DNA of 64,000 bases from Pseudoalteromonas sp. R3 (GTDB taxonomy: Bacteria; Pseudomonadota; Gammaproteobacteria; Enterobacterales; Alteromonadaceae). The notes beneath the pieces were generated by a model, which had not been told where the DNA came from, did no database searches, and saw only the letters and a list, made by a program, of their open reading frames with translations. Positions 7,043-19,176 of this stretch are shown one piece after another (positions within the stretch are counted from its first letter, which is position 1; each line of letters opens with the position of its first letter). The DNA lies in assembly GCF_004014715.1 (NCBI RefSeq), contig NZ_CP034835.1:992001-1056000 (forward strand), in the 5' to 3' direction. The translations under genes were made by a program, and so were the position numbers.

Positions 7043-8097
7043 GAGCTTGCTCCATGCCCGTAAGTACGAGGCTGCGTATAGTAATCAATCAAAGGTACCG
7101 CCATGTTCATGATCAGCACGGCAAAAGCGACGGCATCCGGGTAGCCACCAAAGTGGCGGATCAGATAAACCAATAGACCAATCAGCGCACCATAAATTAA
7201 ACGGCCACGGTTGGTGGTACTGGCCGATACCGGATCGGTGGCAATAAAAAACGCGCCCAGCATAGTTGCACCACTGAATAGATGGAAAAGCGTACCCGCC
7301 TGTGCTGCAGGTGACAAAACATAGCCAATGCCGCTGCACACCGCCAGGGTCACGATAAATGCCACCGGGATATGCCAGTTAATGACTTTGGTTTTTAGCA
7401 GATACAAACCACCCAACAGGTAAGCCAGGTTAACCCACTGCCAGCCTTGCCCGGCATAGTCGCCGAACGCGACATTGTTAGTGGCTTCTGAAACAGTCAG
7501 ATTTTGTGATACGGCCGTTTTCACATGGTCAAGCGGTGTGGCTGAGGTTGTGCCATCAATCACCTGACGCGCTTCTGCCAGCGGGATGCCCGACAGGGTT
7601 TGTTCGGTAAAAATGAGCACCAGTTGATCCACGGTTGACAGCGGCGTTGCCTGTATTTCGATAATGGGTGTCCAGCTGGTCATTTGCACCGGAAATGAGA
7701 TCAACAGCAACACATAAGCGGCCATGGCGGGGTTGAACAGATTAAAGCCCAGCCCGCCATAGAGCTGTTTAACTATTGCAATGGCAAACACACAGCCAAT
7801 TACGGTGACCCACCAGGGAGCCAGAGGCGGAATGCTCACAGCAAGCAGTACGGCAGTCAGCCAGGCACTGCCGTCACTGAGTGTTGGCCACACTGGGCGG
7901 TTGCGCAGTTTCATCATTGCGGCTTCGGTCGCGCTGACCGTTAACAGTGCCAGCAAGAGCTGAAACAGGGTGCCGGGGCCAAAAAAGTAACTTTGTACCA
8001 GAATACCCGGGATACAGGCGGCGATAACCGTCAGCATCAGGCGGCTGAGGGTTTTGTGGCTGTGATTGTGGGGCGATGAAGCCATGGTTAATTTCAT
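7039..8097 (-). CDS. rsxD: Electron transport complex subunit RsxD (RnfD)
   Basis: 352 aa, matching E. coli RsxD in length. It is an integral membrane subunit with about 9-10 helices, homologous to NqrB, and forms part of the ion-translocating core. The motif HLFSGATMLGAFFIATDPVSA near residue 265 contains the Thr (SGAT) that carries covalent FMN in RnfD/NqrB. FNLFNPAMAAYVLLLISFP near residue 125 is another family block. The start overlaps the rsxC stop as ATGA; an alternative ATG lies 12 nt downstream (MASSPHN). Confidence 0.94.
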   Translation of the reverse strand: MKLTMASSPHNHSHKTLSRLMLTVIAACIPGILVQSYFFGPGTLFQLLLALLTVSATEAAMMKLRNRPVWPTLSDGSAWLTAVLLAVSIPPLAPWWVTVIGCVFAIAIVKQLYGGLGFNLFNPAMAAYVLLLISFPVQMTSWTPIIEIQATPLSTVDQLVLIFTEQTLSGIPLAEARQVIDGTTSATPLDHVKTAVSQNLTVSEATNNVAFGDYAGQGWQWVNLAYLLGGLYLLKTKVINWHIPVAFIVTLAVCSGIGYVLSPAAQAGTLFHLFSGATMLGAFFIATDPVSASTTNRGRLIYGALIGLLVYLIRHFGGYPDAVAFAVLIMNMAVPLIDYYTQPRTYGHGASS

Positions 8098-10829
8098 GAC
8101 GGATCATTTCCTTCTTGGTCTTCGGCTGCGGCCTGCTTTTTTGCTTTTGCGCGTGCAACAGCGGCTTTAATCGCGGCCTGACGTTTTTCTTCGGCGCTAA
8201 GCGGCGCTTCATGAGTGCTCTGAGGCGCGTCGCCAGGTTCTATACCTGTTTGTTGCTCGGCCTCTTTGGCGGCTTTCTTCGCCTTAGCACGGGCAATCGC
8301 AGCGGCAACGGCGGCCTTGCGGGGATCTTCCGGCTCAACGGGTGCCTCGACAAGTTCTGCGTCTGTTTGCTGCTCGGCTTCTTTGGCGGCTTTCTTCGCC
8401 TTAGCACGGGCTATTGCAGCGGCGACGGCGGCCTTACGGGGATCTTCCGGCTCAGAAGGTGTATCGCTAGGTTCTACGTCTGTTTGCTGTTCGGCCTCTT
8501 TGGCGGCTTTCTTCGCCTTAGCACGGGCAATCGCAGCAGCGACGGCGGCCTTACGGGGATCTTCCGGCTCAGAAGGTGTATCGCTAGGTTCTGCGTCTGC
8601 TTGCTGTTCGGCCTCTTTGGCGGCTTTCTTCGCCTTAGCACGGGCAATGGCAGCGGCGACAGCGGCCTTGCGAGGATCTTCCGGTTCAGCGGTAGAATCG
8701 GCTGGCTTAGCGTCTATTTGCTGTTCGGCTTCTTTGGCGGCTTTCTTTGCCTTAGCACGGGCAATCGCAGCGGCGACAGCGGCCTTGCGAGGATCTTCCG
8801 GTTCAGCGGTAGAATCGGCTGGCTTAGCGTCTATTTGCTGTTCGGCTTCTTTGGCGGCTTTCTTTGCTTTAGCACGGGCGATGGCGGCGGCCACAGCAGC
8901 CTTGCGAGGATCTTCGGCTCCTGTGTCGCTTTGCGACGGCGTCGCCTCGTTGTCCTGTTGGGCTGACTTTTTCGCCTTGGCGCGTGCAATGGCAGCAGCG
9001 ACAGCGGCTTTACGCGGATCCTCTGCTGTGGCAGCAAAAGAGTCAGTCGCGTCATTTTGTTGTGCTGCTTTTTTAGCTTTAGCCCTTGCTATGGCGGCGG
9101 CAACGGCATCTTTGCGTGAGCCTTCTCCGCCGGCATGCATCTCAGGTGCAGCTTGTGCGTCTTTTTCTGCTTTGTACTGACGCGCTTTTTCTTTGCGCTT
9201 AGCACGCTCCAGTGCCACTTCTGAATTGTCCGGCTCCAGCGTGCCATCGGCCGCTTTTTTGGCTTTGGCCCGCTCAATCGCGGCTTGTACAGCAGACTGG
9301 CTGTCTTTTTTCTGTTTGACGCGCTCCATTGCGGCGCTGACTTTATCGCTTTGCTCTGCACTGCGGGTACTGCTGCGAGCTGAGCGCTTATGACGATTCT
9401 GACGTTCTTCCTGCTCCCGCTCGAGTCGTTCTTTACGTGCCTCAAAGCGTTCTTTAGCACGCTCTGCCTTCACTTTTTCGAGCTTTTGTTCGCGGATCTC
9501 GGCTTTGGCAACCCGATAATATTGCACCAGCGGGATTTCACTTGGACAAACATAGGCACAGGCACCGCACTCAATACAGTCGAACAAATTGTGCTCTTCC
9601 AGCTTGTCGTACTCTTTGCCTTTGGCAAACCACTGTAGTTGTTGTGGCAGCAGAGTTTGAGGGCAGGCATCAGCACAAGCGCTACAACGAATACATGCCT
9701 GCTCAGGGCCGGCAACGGCCAGCTCCTGGTTATCCGGTGCCAGAATACAGTTAGTGGTTTTTACGACTGGAATTCGTACCGTTGGCAGGGTAAAACCCAT
9801 CATAGGCCCCCCCATGATAACTCGCTGTTCAGTTACAGGTTCAAAGCCCTGGCAAGTAAGTAAGTGCTTAATCTCTGTGCCTAGCAGTGCCCAGACATTT
9901 TGTGGTGTCTGGATGGTGTTTCCGGTCACAGTTACCACGCGTTCAATCAGCGGTTTGCCTTTGCATACGGCTTCGCTGACGGCAAACAAAGTACCGACAT
10001 TCTGTACCAAAACGCCAACATCGGCAGGTATTCCACCGCTGGGGACTTCTTTAGAGGTCAGTACCTGTATCAATTGTTTCTCACCACCCGAGGGGTATTT
10101 CACCGGTAGACCGCGTATTAGGATTTTATTATTGTGAGCCGCCGCTGCGGTCATCGCCTGAATGGCTTCAGGTTTATTGGTTTCAATGCCAACCAGCACA
10201 TACTCCGGATTTAGCAGGTGCTGCATAATCTCTATGCCCTGTACAATTTGCTCGGCATGTTCGCGCATGAGCAGATCATCAGCGGTGATATAAGGCTCGC
10301 ATTCAACGCCGTTGACCACTAAAAATTCAACAGGTTTATGCTTTGCGCTGTCTGCTTTGACATAGGTTGGAAAACCCGCGCCGCCCATCCCGGCAATACC
10401 AGCATGGTGAATAATGTCGATTAATGCCTGGTTATCGAGCTGGGTGAAGTCCGGAACCGGCCTAAGTTCACACCAGCTGTCCTTGCCGTCCGGGGTGAGT
10501 ACGATACTCAACTCAGGCAAAGCGGAAGGGTGTGCTGAAGGCATAGGTTTGATGTCACAGATCACCCCTGAAGTAGGGGCATGCACAGGCAATGACCAGT
10601 TTGCGCCCGGGCGGGTTAGTGCCTGACCTTTTAGTACGGTGTCCCCTTTATTTACCAGCAGCTGACCGTTGGCTCCAATATGCTGCTTCAGAGGTAGCAC
10701 CAGATAGTCGGGCAGGGGAATACGACCAATACTCGCCTGATTTGACACAGATTTTTGCTCCGGTGGATGAATGCCACCGGGAAACTGCCACAGTTTACCG
10801 TGTTCAATTTGCTCAAGTAAAGTTTCCAC
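8094..10829 (-). CDS. rsxC: Electron transport complex subunit RsxC (RnfC) with expanded repeat tail
   Basis: 911 aa, much longer than E. coli RsxC (about 740). Residues 1-440 form the conserved peripheral NADH/FMN-type module, including the Gly-rich GMGGAGFPTYVK block near 150. Two 4Fe-4S motifs follow, CIRCSACADACP (about 380) and CIECGACAYVCP (about 419). After residue 440 comes a highly charged helical tail. From about residue 600 it consists of tandem units starting EDPRKAAVAAAIARAKAKK, seven of them exact, plus degenerate copies at both ends; five full units are 39 aa (117 bp) apart. Ala/Lys-rich RnfC tails are known in gammaproteobacteria, but this one is unusually regular. The repeats create long spurious ORFs on the opposite strand. 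Confidence 0.93.
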   Translation of the reverse strand: METLLEQIEHGKLWQFPGGIHPPEQKSVSNQASIGRIPLPDYLVLPLKQHIGANGQLLVNKGDTVLKGQALTRPGANWSLPVHAPTSGVICDIKPMPSAHPSALPELSIVLTPDGKDSWCELRPVPDFTQLDNQALIDIIHHAGIAGMGGAGFPTYVKADSAKHKPVEFLVVNGVECEPYITADDLLMREHAEQIVQGIEIMQHLLNPEYVLVGIETNKPEAIQAMTAAAAHNNKILIRGLPVKYPSGGEKQLIQVLTSKEVPSGGIPADVGVLVQNVGTLFAVSEAVCKGKPLIERVVTVTGNTIQTPQNVWALLGTEIKHLLTCQGFEPVTEQRVIMGGPMMGFTLPTVRIPVVKTTNCILAPDNQELAVAGPEQACIRCSACADACPQTLLPQQLQWFAKGKEYDKLEEHNLFDCIECGACAYVCPSEIPLVQYYRVAKAEIREQKLEKVKAERAKERFEARKERLEREQEERQNRHKRSARSSTRSAEQSDKVSAAMERVKQKKDSQSAVQAAIERAKAKKAADGTLEPDNSEVALERAKRKEKARQYKAEKDAQAAPEMHAGGEGSRKDAVAAAIARAKAKKAAQQNDATDSFAATAEDPRKAAVAAAIARAKAKKSAQQDNEATPSQSDTGAEDPRKAAVAAAIARAKAKKAAKEAEQQIDAKPADSTAEPEDPRKAAVAAAIARAKAKKAAKEAEQQIDAKPADSTAEPEDPRKAAVAAAIARAKAKKAAKEAEQQADAEPSDTPSEPEDPRKAAVAAAIARAKAKKAAKEAEQQTDVEPSDTPSEPEDPRKAAVAAAIARAKAKKAAKEAEQQTDAELVEAPVEPEDPRKAAVAAAIARAKAKKAAKEAEQQTGIEPGDAPQSTHEAPLSAEEKRQAAIKAAVARAKAKKQAAAEDQEGNDPS
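8247..8915 (-). repeat. 117-bp tandem repeats inside rsxC
   Basis: Five complete in-phase 117-bp units (8331-8915) and a partial sixth (to about 8247) encode 39-aa blocks of RsxC. A shared CTTTGGC word recurs at 8264, 8381 and 8498, exactly 117 bp apart. The two units nearest 8700-8915 are almost identical at DNA level, which points to recent duplication or gene conversion. A 108-bp related unit precedes them (8916-9023). Confidence 0.93.
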
Positions 10830-10838
10830 TTAAACCTC

Positions 10839-11393
10839 TTAGTCGATTTGCTTTACAGGAATGGCGTCAATTTGCCACTTCCAGGTTTGGACGGTTGGTG
10901 CCACCGGGATCATATCAATACAATCGACAGGGCAGGGGTCGACACACAGGTCGCAGCCGGTACATTCGTCTGCAATGACGGTATGCATTTGCCGGGTCGC
11001 GCCGACGATGGCATCAACCGGACAGGCCTGAATGCACTTAGTGCAACCAATGCACTCATCTTCGCGTATATAGGCAACCTTTTTAATGGGCTCGGCTTCT
11101 TCGCCACCGGCCAGGGGTTTGGCCTCAACGCCCATTAAATCGGCCAATTTTTTCACCGTTGCCTCGCCACCTGGTGGGCATTTGTTTACGTCGTCCCCAT
11201 TTGCAATCGCTTCTGCATAGGGGCGGCAACCAGGATAACCACACTGACCACATTGTGTTTGCGGTAAGATGGCATCTACCTGATCAACAATCGGGTTACT
11301 TTCAACGCGGTACTTAACAGCGGCGTAGCCGAGAATAAGGCCAAAAACCAGCGCCAGTGCGCCGATGGCAATAAGTGCATAAAACAGTGTCAT
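10839..11393 (-). CDS. rsxB: Electron transport complex subunit RsxB (RnfB), iron-sulfur protein
   Basis: 184 aa. It has an N-terminal membrane helix (residues 4-26), then a Cys cluster [12 protein letters not shown] near 46-57 that binds a 4Fe-4S centre of the Fe-S domain type. Two ferredoxin motifs follow near 113 and 143, [12 protein letters not shown] and [12 protein letters not shown]. It passes electrons between the ferredoxin side and the membrane core of the Rsx complex. It lies 1 nt after rsxA and 9 nt before rsxC in the operon. All expected cysteines are present. Confidence 0.95.
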
Positions 11394-14286: not shown

Positions 14287-14363
14287 TGGCTCCCCCTCCC
14301 CGACTCGAACGGGGGACCTGCGGATTAACAGTCCGTCGCTCTAACCAACTGAGCTAAGGGGGA
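14287..14363 (-). tRNA. tRNA-Asn(GTT), copy 4 in transcription order
   Basis: 77 nt including encoded CCA. The acceptor pairs TCCCCCT with AGGGGGA, and the anticodon loop reads CTGTTAA (GTT). It has normal D arm (AGCTCAGTTGGTTAGAGC) and T arm (GTTCGAGT loop region). It is the last gene of a four-gene tandem array read on the minus strand. Confidence 0.97.
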
Positions 14364-14384
14364 ACAAAATGCTGTTACTCAAAT

Positions 14385-14461
14385 TGGCTCCCCCTCCCCG
14401 ACTCGAACGGGGGACCTGCGGATTAACAGTCCGTCGCTCTAACCAACTGAGCTAAGGGGGA
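14385..14461 (-). tRNA. tRNA-Asn(GTT), copy 3
   Basis: Identical 77-nt sequence to the neighbouring copy, with encoded CCA and anticodon GTT. It is separated from the next copy by only 21 nt, so all four are probably cut from one precursor. Confidence 0.97.
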
Positions 14462-14495
14462 ACTTTTTGAGTAAATAACGATGAGCCAAAATAAG

Positions 14496-14572
14496 TGGCT
14501 CCCCCTCCCCGACTCGAACGGGGGACCTGCGGATTAACAGTCCGTCGCTCTAACCAACTGAGCTAAGGGGGA
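14496..14572 (-). tRNA. tRNA-Asn(GTT), copy 2
   Basis: 77 nt, identical to copies 3 and 4, with anticodon GTT and encoded CCA. Confidence 0.97.
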
Positions 14573-14591
14573 ATCGTTTATATTGAAAGAT

Positions 14592-14668
14592 TGGCTCCCC
14601 CTCCCCGACTCGAACGGGGGACCTGCGGATTAACAGTCCGTCGCTCTAACCAACTGAGCTAAGGGGAA
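14592..14668 (-). tRNA. tRNA-Asn(GTT), copy 1, with an acceptor-stem variant
   Basis: 77 nt, anticodon GTT, encoded CCA. It differs from the other three at acceptor position 2: the 5' strand reads TTCCCCT instead of TCCCCCT, turning the second pair (C2-G71) into a T2-G71 wobble. It is nearest the promoter and should still fold normally. Confidence 0.95.
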
Positions 14669-14690: not shown

Positions 14691-14719
14691 ATATTAATGA
14701 CCGCTAGGCAAGGTGTCAA
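14691..14719 (-). promoter_or_regulatory. Sigma-70 promoter of the tRNA-Asn array
   Basis: On the minus strand, TTGACA (perfect -35) and TAATAT are separated by exactly 17 bp and followed by a GC-rich discriminator (CGCCCCG). Such a discriminator is typical of stable-RNA promoters under stringent control. Transcription would start near 14684, about 15 nt before the first tRNA. Confidence 0.85.
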
Positions 14720-14832: not shown

Positions 14833-15174
14833 ATAACTAGTCAGAGTGGGACAAAGTTACGAAATGTATAATTTTTGATGCTTATGTCGTTATTTTGTTC
14901 GAAGCGAACTTTTTTTGCACTTTAACAGAGATCCGATTTGTCTGTGGTTTGAGATCCCGCGAAGATCGTGAAAATGATCGAATAACAATACAGTATAATT
15001 GGAATTTATTGCACAAAAATTACCCAATATATACAGAATTATTGCATATAAATGTTCTAAAATATATAAAGTCATTTTTTATCAATTGCTTAGGTGTTTT
15101 TTGGGGTCGTTGCTACCAATTTGCAATATTTTGATATTGGTCTAGCAGCGCTGGATCTTTCCTTGAAATGTGAC

Positions 15175-15293
15175 TCGATCCAGATCGAATAAGCTGATGA
15201 TCAGGTGCAAGGGCGCGATCCTTCATTTGGATCGCGAGCTAGGCCTTTATTTTTAAAGGCTGTGATAAGTTATCCACGGAATCTGTGGATAAC
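15175..15293. repeat. Four consecutive inverted repeats ending in paired DnaA boxes
   Basis: In order: TCGATC/GATCGA (15175-15188, 2-nt spacer); CGCGATCC/GGATCGCG (15214-15236, 7-nt spacer); GCCTTTA/TAAAGGC (15243-15260, 4-nt spacer); GTTATCCAC/GTGGATAAC (15269-15293, 7-nt spacer). All arms are perfect. The first two are built around GATC sites and the last around DnaA boxes. Confidence 0.7.
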
Positions 15294-15787
15294 ATTGTTT
15301 ATTAAACTTTAAAAAGTGCTACAACGCCATATATTCCGCGGCATAGCGACGATGCAAGTGTTTTGATGAAAAATAATTAGTTGTTACATTTCAAGTGGTT
15401 ATTTAATTTGCACCATACTGGAACGAGAAATGCACAATATGACGGATTTATTTCGTCCTCGCCCCATAGATGTGCAAAAAGTGACCCGAATCAAGTTCTG
15501 TTTTTCTAAAAAACCAACTTTTTGCTAAAAATGTTTGAGTTGGTGTGAAATACCCCAATAAAACAATTTTTAATGCACTGCCAGGTATCCGCGAACTTAA
15601 CCGCTTCACTCGTTTGTCGTCAAAGCAGGATATTGTCATGCGATGGCCGTTTTGGACTAAACCCTGGTAGCAGTGCCAAACGTAATACATAACAGCTGTT
15701 TAATCCGCACAGGCTGGATGTTTAATTAAGTGCATCATCGAAAGTGATCCATTAGAATACTCGCTTCCAAATGAGGTAAAGCAAACT

Positions 15788-17167
15788 ATGTCCGCAGTTC
15801 GTCAATCAAATCCCGGTAGTGATATTCTCAATGGGTCAATCGTGGAAACGCTCAGACGTATGACCGTTCCCATGATTTTTGGCATGATCACTCTGATGAG
15901 TTTTAACTTAATCGACACTTTTTTTATCAGCTTACTCGGCACAGAGCCTCTAGCGGCTGTGAGTTTTACCTTCCCAGTAACTTTTACTGTTATTAGTCTT
16001 GCCATCGGGTTGGGTATTGGAACATCTGCGGTCATTGCAAAAGCCTTAGGTGCCAACAACATGGAAGAAGCTAAATTCGATGGCTTTGTTGCACTGCTGG
16101 TATCTGCGGTGATGGTGGCAATTTTATCAGCCATTGGTTACGCATCGATAGAGCCTATTTTTACCTTGCTGGGTGCCAGTGCGCAAACCATGCCTTATAT
16201 CTATGACTATATTTCAATCTGGTTTGCGGGCGCTGTATTTCTGATTATGCCGATGATTGGTAACTCAATCCTCAGAGCCAGTGGTGATACGAAAACGCCA
16301 AGTTTGATTATGGGTTTGGGCGGACTGATTAACGCCATTTTGGATCCCTTGCTGATTTTTGGCTATGGTCCATTTCCTGAATTAGGTGTCAAAGGGGCGG
16401 CCATTGCCAGTGTGATTGCCTGGAGCGTAGGCGTAGTATTTATTTTATATCTGCTGGCAGTTAAGAAGCGTTTACTACAATTATCCAGTCCGCAACAGAG
16501 CATTGTTCAGGCGACCAGTAAAATATTAAAGATTGGATTGCCAGCTGCAGGGGCCAATATGCTCACGCCAATAGCGATGGCGGTCATGACGGCGATTATC
16601 GCCACGTATGGTGCAGAGGCCGTGGCCGCTTTTGGTGTTGGTAGCCGTATCGAATCCATCGCCAGTCTGGTGGTGTTAGCTTTGTCTATGACCCTGCCTC
16701 CTTTTGTCAGTCAAAATTTCGGAGCACAGAAATATCAGCGAGTTGAAGACGCATATCGTACCACTCTGAAGTTTGTCATGGCGTGGCAATTTGGTATTTA
16801 TATATTGCTCATTACGGCTTCCCATTGGATCAGTCAGGCCTTTGGTGATGAACCACAAGTTGTCGAGATCATTAAATTATTTATCTATACCTTACCCTTA
16901 AGTTATGGCTTGCAAGGGGTAATCATCCTGACTAACTCATCGTTCAATGCATTGCATAAGCCAATGCGCGCATTAGTATTAAGTGTGGTTAGGTTGTTTG
17001 TCTTCTATATACCATGTGCCTATCTGGGTTCTCACTTTGCTGGCATTCAGGGGCTATTTATCGGTGCTGCATTTGGTAATCTATTTACTGCCATATTGGC
17101 GTATAAATGGTTCACCAGTACGTTAGCAGCAATGCAGCTAAGCACACGACAGGAGGAAGTGGTATGA
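15788..17167 (+). CDS. MATE family efflux transporter
   Basis: 459 aa inner-membrane protein with the twelve helices of the MATE family, which export drugs or metabolites against a Na+ or H+ gradient. The two homologous halves are visible: an N-terminal block with [21 protein letters not shown] and [16 protein letters not shown], and a C-terminal counterpart with [19 protein letters not shown] and [15 protein letters not shown] lies upstream of the ATG. The stop overlaps the uvrB start by 4 nt (ATGA), so the two are translationally coupled. The substrate cannot be predicted. Confidence 0.9.
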
Positions 17168-19176
17168 GTGATGTATTTGACCTGGTTTCGGACTTTTCAC
17201 CCAGTGGTGATCAGCCTACGGCAATAGCTCAGCTCTGTGACGGATTGGAAGCGGGTTTGGCCCATCAGACTCTGCTGGGGGCTACCGGAACTGGTAAAAC
17301 CTTTACCATGGCTAATATTATCCATACCCTGAATCGGCCAACCATCATCATGGCGCATAACAAAACACTGGCAGCGCAGCTGTATGGTGAGATGAAAGAA
17401 TTTTTCCCTAATAATGCGGTTGAGTATTTCGTATCTTACTATGATTATTACCAGCCAGAAGCTTATGTGGTGGCCAGTGACACCTTTATAGAGAAAGATG
17501 CGTCAATCAATGAGCACATAGAACAGATGCGTTTGTCTGCGACAAAAGCATTGCTGGAGCGTCGGGATACGATTATCGTTGCATCTGTCTCTGCCATTTA
17601 TGGTTTGGGCGATCCAGATTCATATATGAAGATGATGCTGTTGCTTAAAGTGGGCGAAACTATGGAACAGCGCGCAATGCTCAGGCGTTTGGCTGAACTT
17701 CAGTATACCCGTAACGATATGGATTTTAGCCGCGGCACATATCGGGTCAGAGGCGAGGTAATTGATATCTTCCCCGCAGAATCAGATACCTATGCTATCA
17801 GAGTAGAAATGTTCGATGAAGAAATCGAGCGTATCAGCATGTTTGACCCACTAACCGGCGCTGTGGAAAAACACTTAGTTCGGGCCACTATTTATCCTAA
17901 AACTCACTATGTTACACCGCGTGAAAAAATTCTTGATGCGATTGAAAAAATCAAACTTGAGCTCAAAGAGCGGCGCAACAAGTTATTGACTGACAATCGG
18001 TTGATAGAAGAGCAAAGGGTCGCACAACGCACACAGTATGACATTGAAATGATGACCGAGTTGGGTTATTGCTCAGGCATCGAAAACTATAGCCGTTACT
18101 TATCTGGTCGTGCACCTGGAGAGCCACCACCGACCTTGCTGGATTATTTGCCAGATGATGCCTTGATGATCATTGACGAATCTCATGTCACCGTTTCACA
18201 GATTGGTGCCATGTATAAGGGGGATCGCAGCCGCAAAGAGAACCTGGTTGAGTACGGGTTCAGGCTACCTTCTGCCATGGATAATCGCCCACTGAAATTT
18301 GAAGAGTTCGAAGCGATTGCACCGCAGACTATTTATGTCTCTGCTACGCCTGGGGACTATGAACTCAATAGATCCAGTGGTGAAGTGGCCGAGCAGGTGA
18401 TCCGCCCTACGGGGCTGTTAGACCCGGAACTGGAAGTACGCCCCGTGGCAACTCAAGTTGATGATCTCTTATCTGAAATTTATCGTCGTGTCGAGCTCAA
18501 GGAGCGTGTTCTGGTTACGACTCTGACCAAGCGTATGGCAGAAGATCTTACCGACTACCTCAATGACCATGATGTCCGGGTACGTTATTTACACTCTGAT
18601 ATTGATACCGTAGAACGAATGGAAATTATCCGGGATCTGCGCAAAGGAGTGTTTGACGTCTTGGTTGGCATTAACTTGCTACGTGAAGGCCTGGATATGC
18701 CAGAGGTTTCATTGGTTGCCATTCTGGATGCGGATAAAGAGGGCTTCTTGCGCTCAGCACGGTCACTTATTCAGACAATTGGTCGGGCTGCGCGGCACAT
18801 CAATGGTAAAGCCATTTTGTATGGGGATTCGATCACCAAATCTATGCGTCAGGCAATTGATGAAACAGAGCGACGTCGAGCTATTCAGCATGCTTACAAC
18901 GAAAAGCATGGCTTAAAACCGCAAGCCTTAGTGAAGAAAATCACAGATGTAATGGATTTGGGTGAAGAAGTCTCGGCAGAGCAGTCTAAAGTTATGCCGA
19001 AAATGTCGAAAAAGGCAACACCTTCTAAGCAAACACACAGTGTTGCTGAATTGACTGAGCAGATAAAGCAGCTAGAGTCTCAGATGATGCAATACGCACG
19101 TGAGTTGGAGTTCGAGAAGGCGGCTGCAATACGAGATGAAGTGCATCTGTTGCAGCAACAATTGCTGAAAAGTTAA
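17164..19176 (+). CDS. uvrB: Excinuclease ABC subunit B
   Basis: 670 aa (E. coli 673). It is the DNA-damage-verifying helicase of nucleotide-excision repair, working with UvrA and then UvrC. It carries Walker [11 protein letters not shown] near residue 40, the Tyr-rich beta-hairpin region [11 protein letters not shown] near 92-104, the IIDESHVTV box near 335, helicase motif [11 protein letters not shown] near 538, and a C-terminal UVR motif ([12 protein letters not shown]) that contacts UvrC. I start at 17164 (MSDVFDL): AGGAGG lies 8 nt upstream and the ATG overlaps the MATE stop. An in-frame GTG at 17107 lies inside the MATE gene and is unlikely. Confidence 0.97.

Follow-up and report, generated by a model that had tools for sequence, protein, structure and literature searches.

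A probable DARS1 ortholog in Pseudoalteromonas, with an IHF-consensus site and GATC groups that may gate it

The chromosome of Pseudoalteromonas sp. R3 carries, in a gap between an array of tRNA-Asn genes and the MATE-uvrB gene pair, a dense cluster of GATC sites together with A+T-rich DNA and DnaA boxes. The gap lies within a stretch of 64,000 nucleotides that we analysed as a whole and refer to as the window (positions 992001-1056000 of the 4,496,250-bp contig NZ_CP034835.1, in a genome of two contigs and 5.82 Mb). The locus poses the question of what this combination, familiar from gammaproteobacterial replication origins, is for in such a place. A preliminary description, made from the sequence, had suggested that it may be an origin of replication, either relocated, secondary or belonging to an integrated replicon, or else a datA-like DnaA sink or a SeqA-binding site.

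We conclude that the site is very probably the DARS1 (DnaA-reactivating sequence 1) ortholog of the Pseudoalteromonas chromosome, with a role in recharging DnaA that is assigned by analogy. The basis for this identity is its anatomy, its synteny, its conservation and the absence of origin features. Beyond identity, we propose, with a probability of roughly 40%, that DARS1 is not always constitutive. Both DARS1 and DARS2 would combine the core with an IHF switch some 85 bp beyond box III; a good match to this switch would have been lost in the DARS1 of Escherichia coli K-12 and of some others in its family, and in part of Pseudoalteromonas an added Dam/SeqA latch would close each new copy for a time. 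The binding of IHF and SeqA at DARS1, and the effects of this binding, are predictions from sequence.

A three-box core upstream of MATE and uvrB

The core spans positions 15270-15304 of the window on the forward strand and is built from three DnaA boxes in the order, orientation and spacing of E. coli K-12, with 5 bp between boxes I and II and 3 bp between boxes II and III. Box I (TTATCCACG, 15270-15278, forward strand) is one base away from the consensus TTATCCACA, which is matched in full by box II (15284-15292, reverse strand, reading TGTGGATAA on the forward strand). These two facing boxes had been recognized before, and they are the only ones within one mismatch between positions 14700 and 15790; a third, weaker box (TAATAAACA, 15296-15304, reverse strand), which aligns to the K-12 box TAATACACA, had been overlooked. 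When the core of the K-12 bioD-uvrB gap (GTTATCCACTATTCCTGTGGATAACCATGTGTATTA) is compared with that of the window (GTTATCCACGGAATCTGTGGATAACATTGTTTATTA), boxes I-III, their orientation and both spacers agree. The gene names MATE, uvrB, rppH, mutH, ptsP, RsxA and mioC are assignments that we presume throughout.

According to a review, a DARS is defined by boxes I-III, with box I opposed to boxes II and III and with equal spacing in DARS1 and DARS2 (PMC5742627). The core in the window has this make-up of three boxes, an opposed box I and fixed spacers, and its address is also that of DARS1: it is intergenic and upstream of uvrB, with the MATE gene in between. It further shares with the E. coli DARS1 a mid-arm position, located at 22.6% of the chromosome from oriC as opposed to 32.9% in E. 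coli, and between oriC and the terminus in general, the absolute distances being 21.5-41.0% in ten genomes of the genus, this one included. The surroundings differ in that E. coli has no MATE gene before uvrB and has bioD behind the element, where Pseudoalteromonas has tRNA-Asn genes.

Encoded in the genome are DnaA, SeqA and a short protein with a DnaA domain that is consistent with Hda. If the chemistry can be carried over from published work on E. coli, ADP-DnaA would occupy boxes I and II in a head-to-head arrangement while a further molecule sits on box III; after the loss of ADP, the released apo-DnaA would take up ATP, providing oriC with more initiation-competent DnaA.

A BLAST search with the gap yielded matches in all 36 Pseudoalteromonas genomes (own included) and in three of 24 others, with a common part at about 15268-15315. 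MATE and uvrB accompany the core in 35 of 35 congener loci, and tRNA-Asn genes in 33 of them. A core-like pattern was found in 108 of 108 genomes of the genus (again with our own), usually twice per genome, and in the order a core within two mismatches was present in 107 of 247 genomes; the reversed-pattern control returned nothing in either set. Among 69 order loci examined, 51, from 12 families, have uvrB or MATE-uvrB downstream in one orientation, 289-785 bp from the core. Sites of this type have been reported before: DARS-like sites at uvrB and mutH are published for Vibrio cholerae (PMC6090056), and DARS1- and DARS2-like sequences are known in many proteobacteria (PMC10380432). A DARS1 outside the enterics is therefore not new by itself.

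None of the 51 linked loci has the consensus TTATCCACA as box I, which reads TTATCCAC[CGT] in 46 cases, TTACCCACA in four and ATATCCACA in one. It is one base off the consensus in all of them, but also in 13 of the 18 loci not linked to uvrB, so that this signature fails as a marker of class. Since only five of the 18 have a consensus box I, a weak box I that is kept may be a feature of DARS-like cores in general. A class-wide search with up to three mismatches matched 189 of 369 genomes (control, 0). Thirty of these loci, from gammaproteobacteria outside the order (L117-L146), gave no tblastn match to uvrB, MATE, mutH, rppH, ptsP, mnmG, dnaA or bioD in flanks of up to 1.5 kb and were not counted as DARS1; box I is consensus in 18 of them.

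Other cores of this kind turned up at further addresses. A third DARS-like core sits beside genes that by eye encode an ACT-domain and a PTS-type protein (L112 in genome G017, and L161 from another genus of the same family); similar cores that may represent the same locus (L157-L160, L162, L228, L229) are likewise not linked to uvrB. A core with a consensus box I in genome G036 (L226) lies, as judged by eye, beside integrase-like and transposase-like open reading frames (ORFs), also without linkage to uvrB, and the same core type recurs in L200 and L202.

The genome of strain R3 has a second core at 1,060,184-1,060,218 of the contig (reverse strand), 53 kb from DARS1 and 4 kb past the end of the window. 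It lies between rppH and mutH, which is the address of DARS2 in E. coli; no core beyond these two was found in the genome at up to three mismatches. The site in the window resembles the E. coli DARS2 of the rppH-mutH gap in its core plan, but its address is uvrB and not mutH, and the genome has a DARS2 of its own. Measured from oriC, whose position was set to about 0.2 kb by means of mnmG, DARS2 lies at 23.8% of the chromosome, on the same arm as DARS1. The two share an arm in strain R3 and in three congeners (G001, G012, G021) and occupy opposite arms in four others (G002, G008, G017, G025), as they do in E. coli. The oriC-DARS distances look regular, but symmetric inversions alone would preserve them in the absence of selection.

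The IHF-consensus site and the GATC groups

Past the core, at 15389-15401 on the forward strand, lies an IHF-like site (TTTCAAGTGGTTA) with one mismatch to the consensus that we used, WATCARNNNNTTR; one paper gives the form TAAnnnnTTGATW. The site lies 84 bp beyond the end of the core. For a comparison across loci, the region from -350 to +350 was scanned in 5-bp bins at up to one mismatch. The motif was picked after alignments within the genus, and loci of other genera, of the E. coli family and of DARS2 served as test sets. The set of 31 E. coli-family DARS1 loci has five members in common with the 52 from other genera, and family f18 was taken to be the E. coli family from bioD-uvrB synteny and sequence identity.

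The position of the site proved to be kept. The bin around +84 holds a site in 33 of 36 genus DARS1 loci (background mean, 0.7 per bin). The corresponding figures are 41 of 52 for the loci of other genera, in a bin some 85 bp beyond the core (0.4), and 23 of 31 for E. coli-family DARS1 (0.2). At E. coli-family DARS2, the bin from +82 to +86 is occupied in 28 of 31 loci, with a perfect match in K-12; the site there has the same place as in the window. The best bins for the reversed motif reached at most six loci in the genus, three in other genera, three at E. coli-family DARS1 and four at DARS2, and those for the motif on the other strand 6 of 36 in the genus, 5 of 52 in other genera and 9 of 31 at DARS2 (at -9). 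Pseudoalteromonas DARS2 has an IHF-like site at +72 in 9 of 13 loci. The K-12 DARS1 carries TTTTAACTGGTTA at +86, with two mismatches as opposed to the one at +84 here; the plain reading would be that the flanking site is ancestral and has decayed there.

A further IHF-consensus site without mismatches (TATCAATTGCTTA, 15080-15092, forward strand) lies upstream at -190, between two groups of GATC sites. It is present at up to one mismatch in 13 of 17 GATC-rich alignment rows, which are not independent of each other, and recalls the K-12 DARS2, with its pair of upstream sites about 200 bp from the core (-223 and -207 from the core start). DARS2 of E. coli is described as IHF-dependent (PMC4245941). 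The sites behind this dependence would lie on the opposite side of the core from the +84 site, the published IBS1-2 presumably being the pair at -258/-242, judging by their stated 3-bp gap. A stronger IHF peak 'just outside DARS2' has been reported for a site of low affinity (PMC13036160), which is possibly the +84 site. As a side observation, another IHF-like bin lies at -142 in the E. coli-family DARS2 loci (L285-L314, L113), occupied in 18 of 31 cases. At DARS1, the conserved position of the site past the core suggests that IHF bends the DNA there, some 85 bp beyond box III, and could thereby aid or time the assembly of DnaA on the core; a second bend, 190 bp upstream, may add to this.

Upstream of the core, the ten GATC sites in 304 bp that had attracted attention to the locus were confirmed by a recount of their positions. 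They fall into a distal group (14930, 14953, 14964 and 14976; 14930-14979, or -340 to -294 from the core) and a proximal one (15154, 15177, 15183, 15199, 15217 and 15230; 15154-15233, or -116 to -40). The A+T-rich part noted earlier is the spacer between them (14980-15153), with 72% A+T over 174 bp, a value attained by 0.3% of same-size stretches of the window. Elsewhere in the window, no 304-bp stretch has more than five GATC sites. When its 284 GATC sites were placed randomly in 64 kb, ten per 304 bp were reached in 4 of 2000 trials, and order-1 simulations of the window (n=100) never exceeded eight; chance is thus a poor explanation of the cluster. In a sample of 760 kb of the chromosome (38 stretches of 20 kb), at least ten GATC sites per 304 bp were found at three other places, namely mnmG/oriC with as many as 17, the contig end adjacent to dnaA with 12 and the inside of one ORF with 11. 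Clusters like that at 14930-15233 are therefore rare, though the genome has more than one. The ORF in question has 389 aa (9902-11071 of sampled stretch L071, at about 4260.7 kb of the contig), with its 11 sites at positions 10661-10937 of that stretch.

Across the genus, the 400 bp upstream of the core contain 5-10 GATC sites in 13 of 36 loci and 0-3 in the other 23; K-12 has two in 400 bp, compared with ten within 340 bp here. Where the cluster is present, its positions are conserved, with distances kept near -340, -306, -72 and -40. In seven lineages whose upstream regions are only 35-50% identical, hand-picked as one locus per group of the 13 GATC-rich loci, four 6-bp GATC bins are common to at least five lineages and one to all seven. 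Random placement (n=5000) produced four such bins in no trial and a bin common to all seven in one, and no other tetramer had more than one such bin. Likewise, when 17 loci were aligned, which include several close relatives and were all chosen by GATC number rather than position, no tetramer other than GATC was kept at four places upstream of -32 in 14 or more rows.

The groups are specific to DARS1, and to part of the genus. At oriC, all nine other Pseudoalteromonas genomes compared have 10-15 GATC sites per 304 bp, including the eight that are GATC-poor at DARS1 (10-13 at oriC), so the missing cluster at their DARS1 is not a loss of the system. At DARS2, by contrast, none of 13 genomes has a GATC cluster, and six lack any GATC within 400 bp on either side. 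On a tree of uvrB and MATE, the GATC-rich trait requires two changes; a single origin is neither shown nor excluded. The preliminary description's idea of a SeqA-binding site holds in so far as the GATC sites look like a conserved Dam/SeqA site where they occur, but not for the 23 of 36 genus loci from which the cluster is absent. SeqA follows a spacing rule of GATC sites within about three helical turns; neighbouring sites here are 6-23 bp apart within each group, and SeqA is encoded. After the passage of a replication fork, SeqA might hold the hemimethylated groups and keep DARS1 closed for a while.

A tenable, if somewhat doubtful, alternative is that the GATC groups are unrelated to SeqA or to DARS1 activity and instead make transcription of MATE or of the tRNA-Asn array dependent on Dam, or have some other role. 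They do sit between these divergent transcription units, and most of the genus does without them while the core persists. Against this, the distance between GATC sites and core is kept across diverged lineages, and the same type of cluster marks oriC in a genus that encodes SeqA.

Other identities for the locus, and points against the proposed reading

The identity of the element itself can also be questioned. For the E. coli promoter uvrBp3, overlap with the DARS1 boxes and repression by them have been reported (PMC6015884), and the element precedes uvrB or MATE-uvrB in the 51 linked order loci. It could thus be mainly a DnaA-controlled operator of MATE-uvrB transcription, with recharging secondary or absent. 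We regard this as unlikely, since a matching core, in the E. coli family with an IHF-consensus site at +84, also exists between rppH and mutH, so that uvrB is not a fixed partner of the element. Moreover, the loci of other genera have their first gene anywhere from 289 to 785 bp from the core (with extrapolated gene starts) but keep the best IHF match within 82-87 bp of it (sought in 81-89).

The proposed DnaA sink was right in that this is a chromosomal DnaA-binding control site, but its type is that of DARS1, which recharges DnaA, and not that of datA, which discharges it. A datA-like site for DnaA titration or ATP hydrolysis, although it would likewise be intergenic and combine DnaA boxes, an IHF-like site and nearby tRNA genes, is highly improbable: the box layout and the uvrB address are those of DARS1, and in place of the datA address, glyV-X-Y/queG, we find tRNA-Asn and MATE-uvrB. 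The tRNAs, the neighbours and, by description, the box plan thus all differ from those of datA, which is set apart here by address and core plan and not by a base-by-base comparison with its sequence.

Least probable of all is a relocated or secondary replication origin, and the origin of an integrated replicon is likewise not supported, despite the GATC density, the A+T-rich stretch and the DnaA boxes: the ordinary oriC adjoins mnmG, the gap has only two boxes within one mismatch and no array, the 20-kb skew keeps its sign across the locus, and what is conserved is the three-box element at uvrB. The mnmG match lies at 4,483,511-4,485,358 (reverse strand); four DnaA boxes within one mismatch and 17 GATC sites in 304 bp are found beside it. 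The genome-wide check of GC skew that had been suggested covered 41 stretches. Those between 0 and 2.1 Mb had positive values and those between 2.25 and 4.25 Mb negative ones, with a value of about zero for the stretch that holds mnmG, so that the sign switches near mnmG/oriC and at about 2.2 Mb and not at this locus. Every 20-kb stretch sampled between 0 and 2.1 Mb is positive, those at 900 and 950 kb included, and around 1.007 Mb the skew is +0.016 over the 15 kb before and +0.062 over the 20 kb after. The one feature of the skew that an origin would explain is local: windows of 2 kb are near zero at 2-14 kb of the window and clearly positive from about 15 kb, and on this finer scale alone an origin could not be excluded.

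Several points weigh against the reading as a DARS1 or against its gating. Box III is weak; 140 of the 247 order genomes have no core within two mismatches; and 18 of the 69 order loci are not linked to uvrB, one of them being cut by a contig end. The lack of GATC clusters in 23 of 36 genus loci means that they are not essential. As for the IHF site, genus DARS1 has a second IHF-like bin at +43 in 19 of 36 loci, and the two-mismatch version is found in eight of 31 E. coli-family DARS1 loci, so that K-12 is not a lone exception. E. coli DARS1 is described as independent of IHF (PMC4245941), and IHF need not be required here either. Furthermore, the 64 kb contain, on both strands, 12 IHF-like sites with no and 152 with one mismatch; the copy in the window is by itself weak evidence, and its weight comes only from the fixed position across genera. 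The conservation check suggested for the GATC cluster cut both ways, with the cluster missing from most genus loci and its positions kept where it is present.

Surroundings of the element and implications

Directly ahead of box I lies an inverted repeat (GCCTTTATTTTTAAAGGC, 15243-15260), in which a TTATT run is common to all 17 GATC-rich alignment rows. The flanks are as described before: behind the element are four tRNA-Asn genes (14287-14668, reverse strand), transcribed away from DARS1, and ahead of it the gene of a MATE-family transporter (15788-17167, forward strand), which lies between DARS1 and uvrB. The gap had been called free of genes, and gene-poor is the better term: no ORF of at least 80 aa lies inside the GATC cluster, and a single mechanical ORF of 80 aa occupies 15448-15690. 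The uvrB gene (17164-19176, forward strand) matches the context of K-12 uvrB; its start codon is our assignment, the mechanical ORF beginning at 17107. With this start, it overlaps the MATE stop codon at 17164-17167, which suggests a MATE-uvrB operon that sets uvrB apart from DARS1 in Pseudoalteromonas and a few related groups. Elsewhere in the window, a tandem array at 8230-8920 (117-bp unit, 5.9 copies, 89% matches) produces a GATC every 117 bp; it sits within a 911-aa ORF (8094-10829) that we take to be rsxC-like from its RsxA-like neighbour.

Two features of this DARS1 look new, namely the GATC groups of conserved position and the IHF-consensus site some 85 bp beyond the core. In the literature searched, which did not extend to the 2009 paper that defined the DARS, neither an IHF site nor a GATC cluster is described at DARS1, and the sequestration of a DnaA-recharging site is described for no DARS in the text covered. 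How the supply of ATP-DnaA is set is a live question, debated between titration and switch models. If our reading is true, a fixed IHF site belongs to DARS1 in most of the sampled lineages of the order, and the picture drawn from K-12 would not be general; in addition, the GATC sites of conserved position would couple the recharging of DnaA to the passage of the replication fork.
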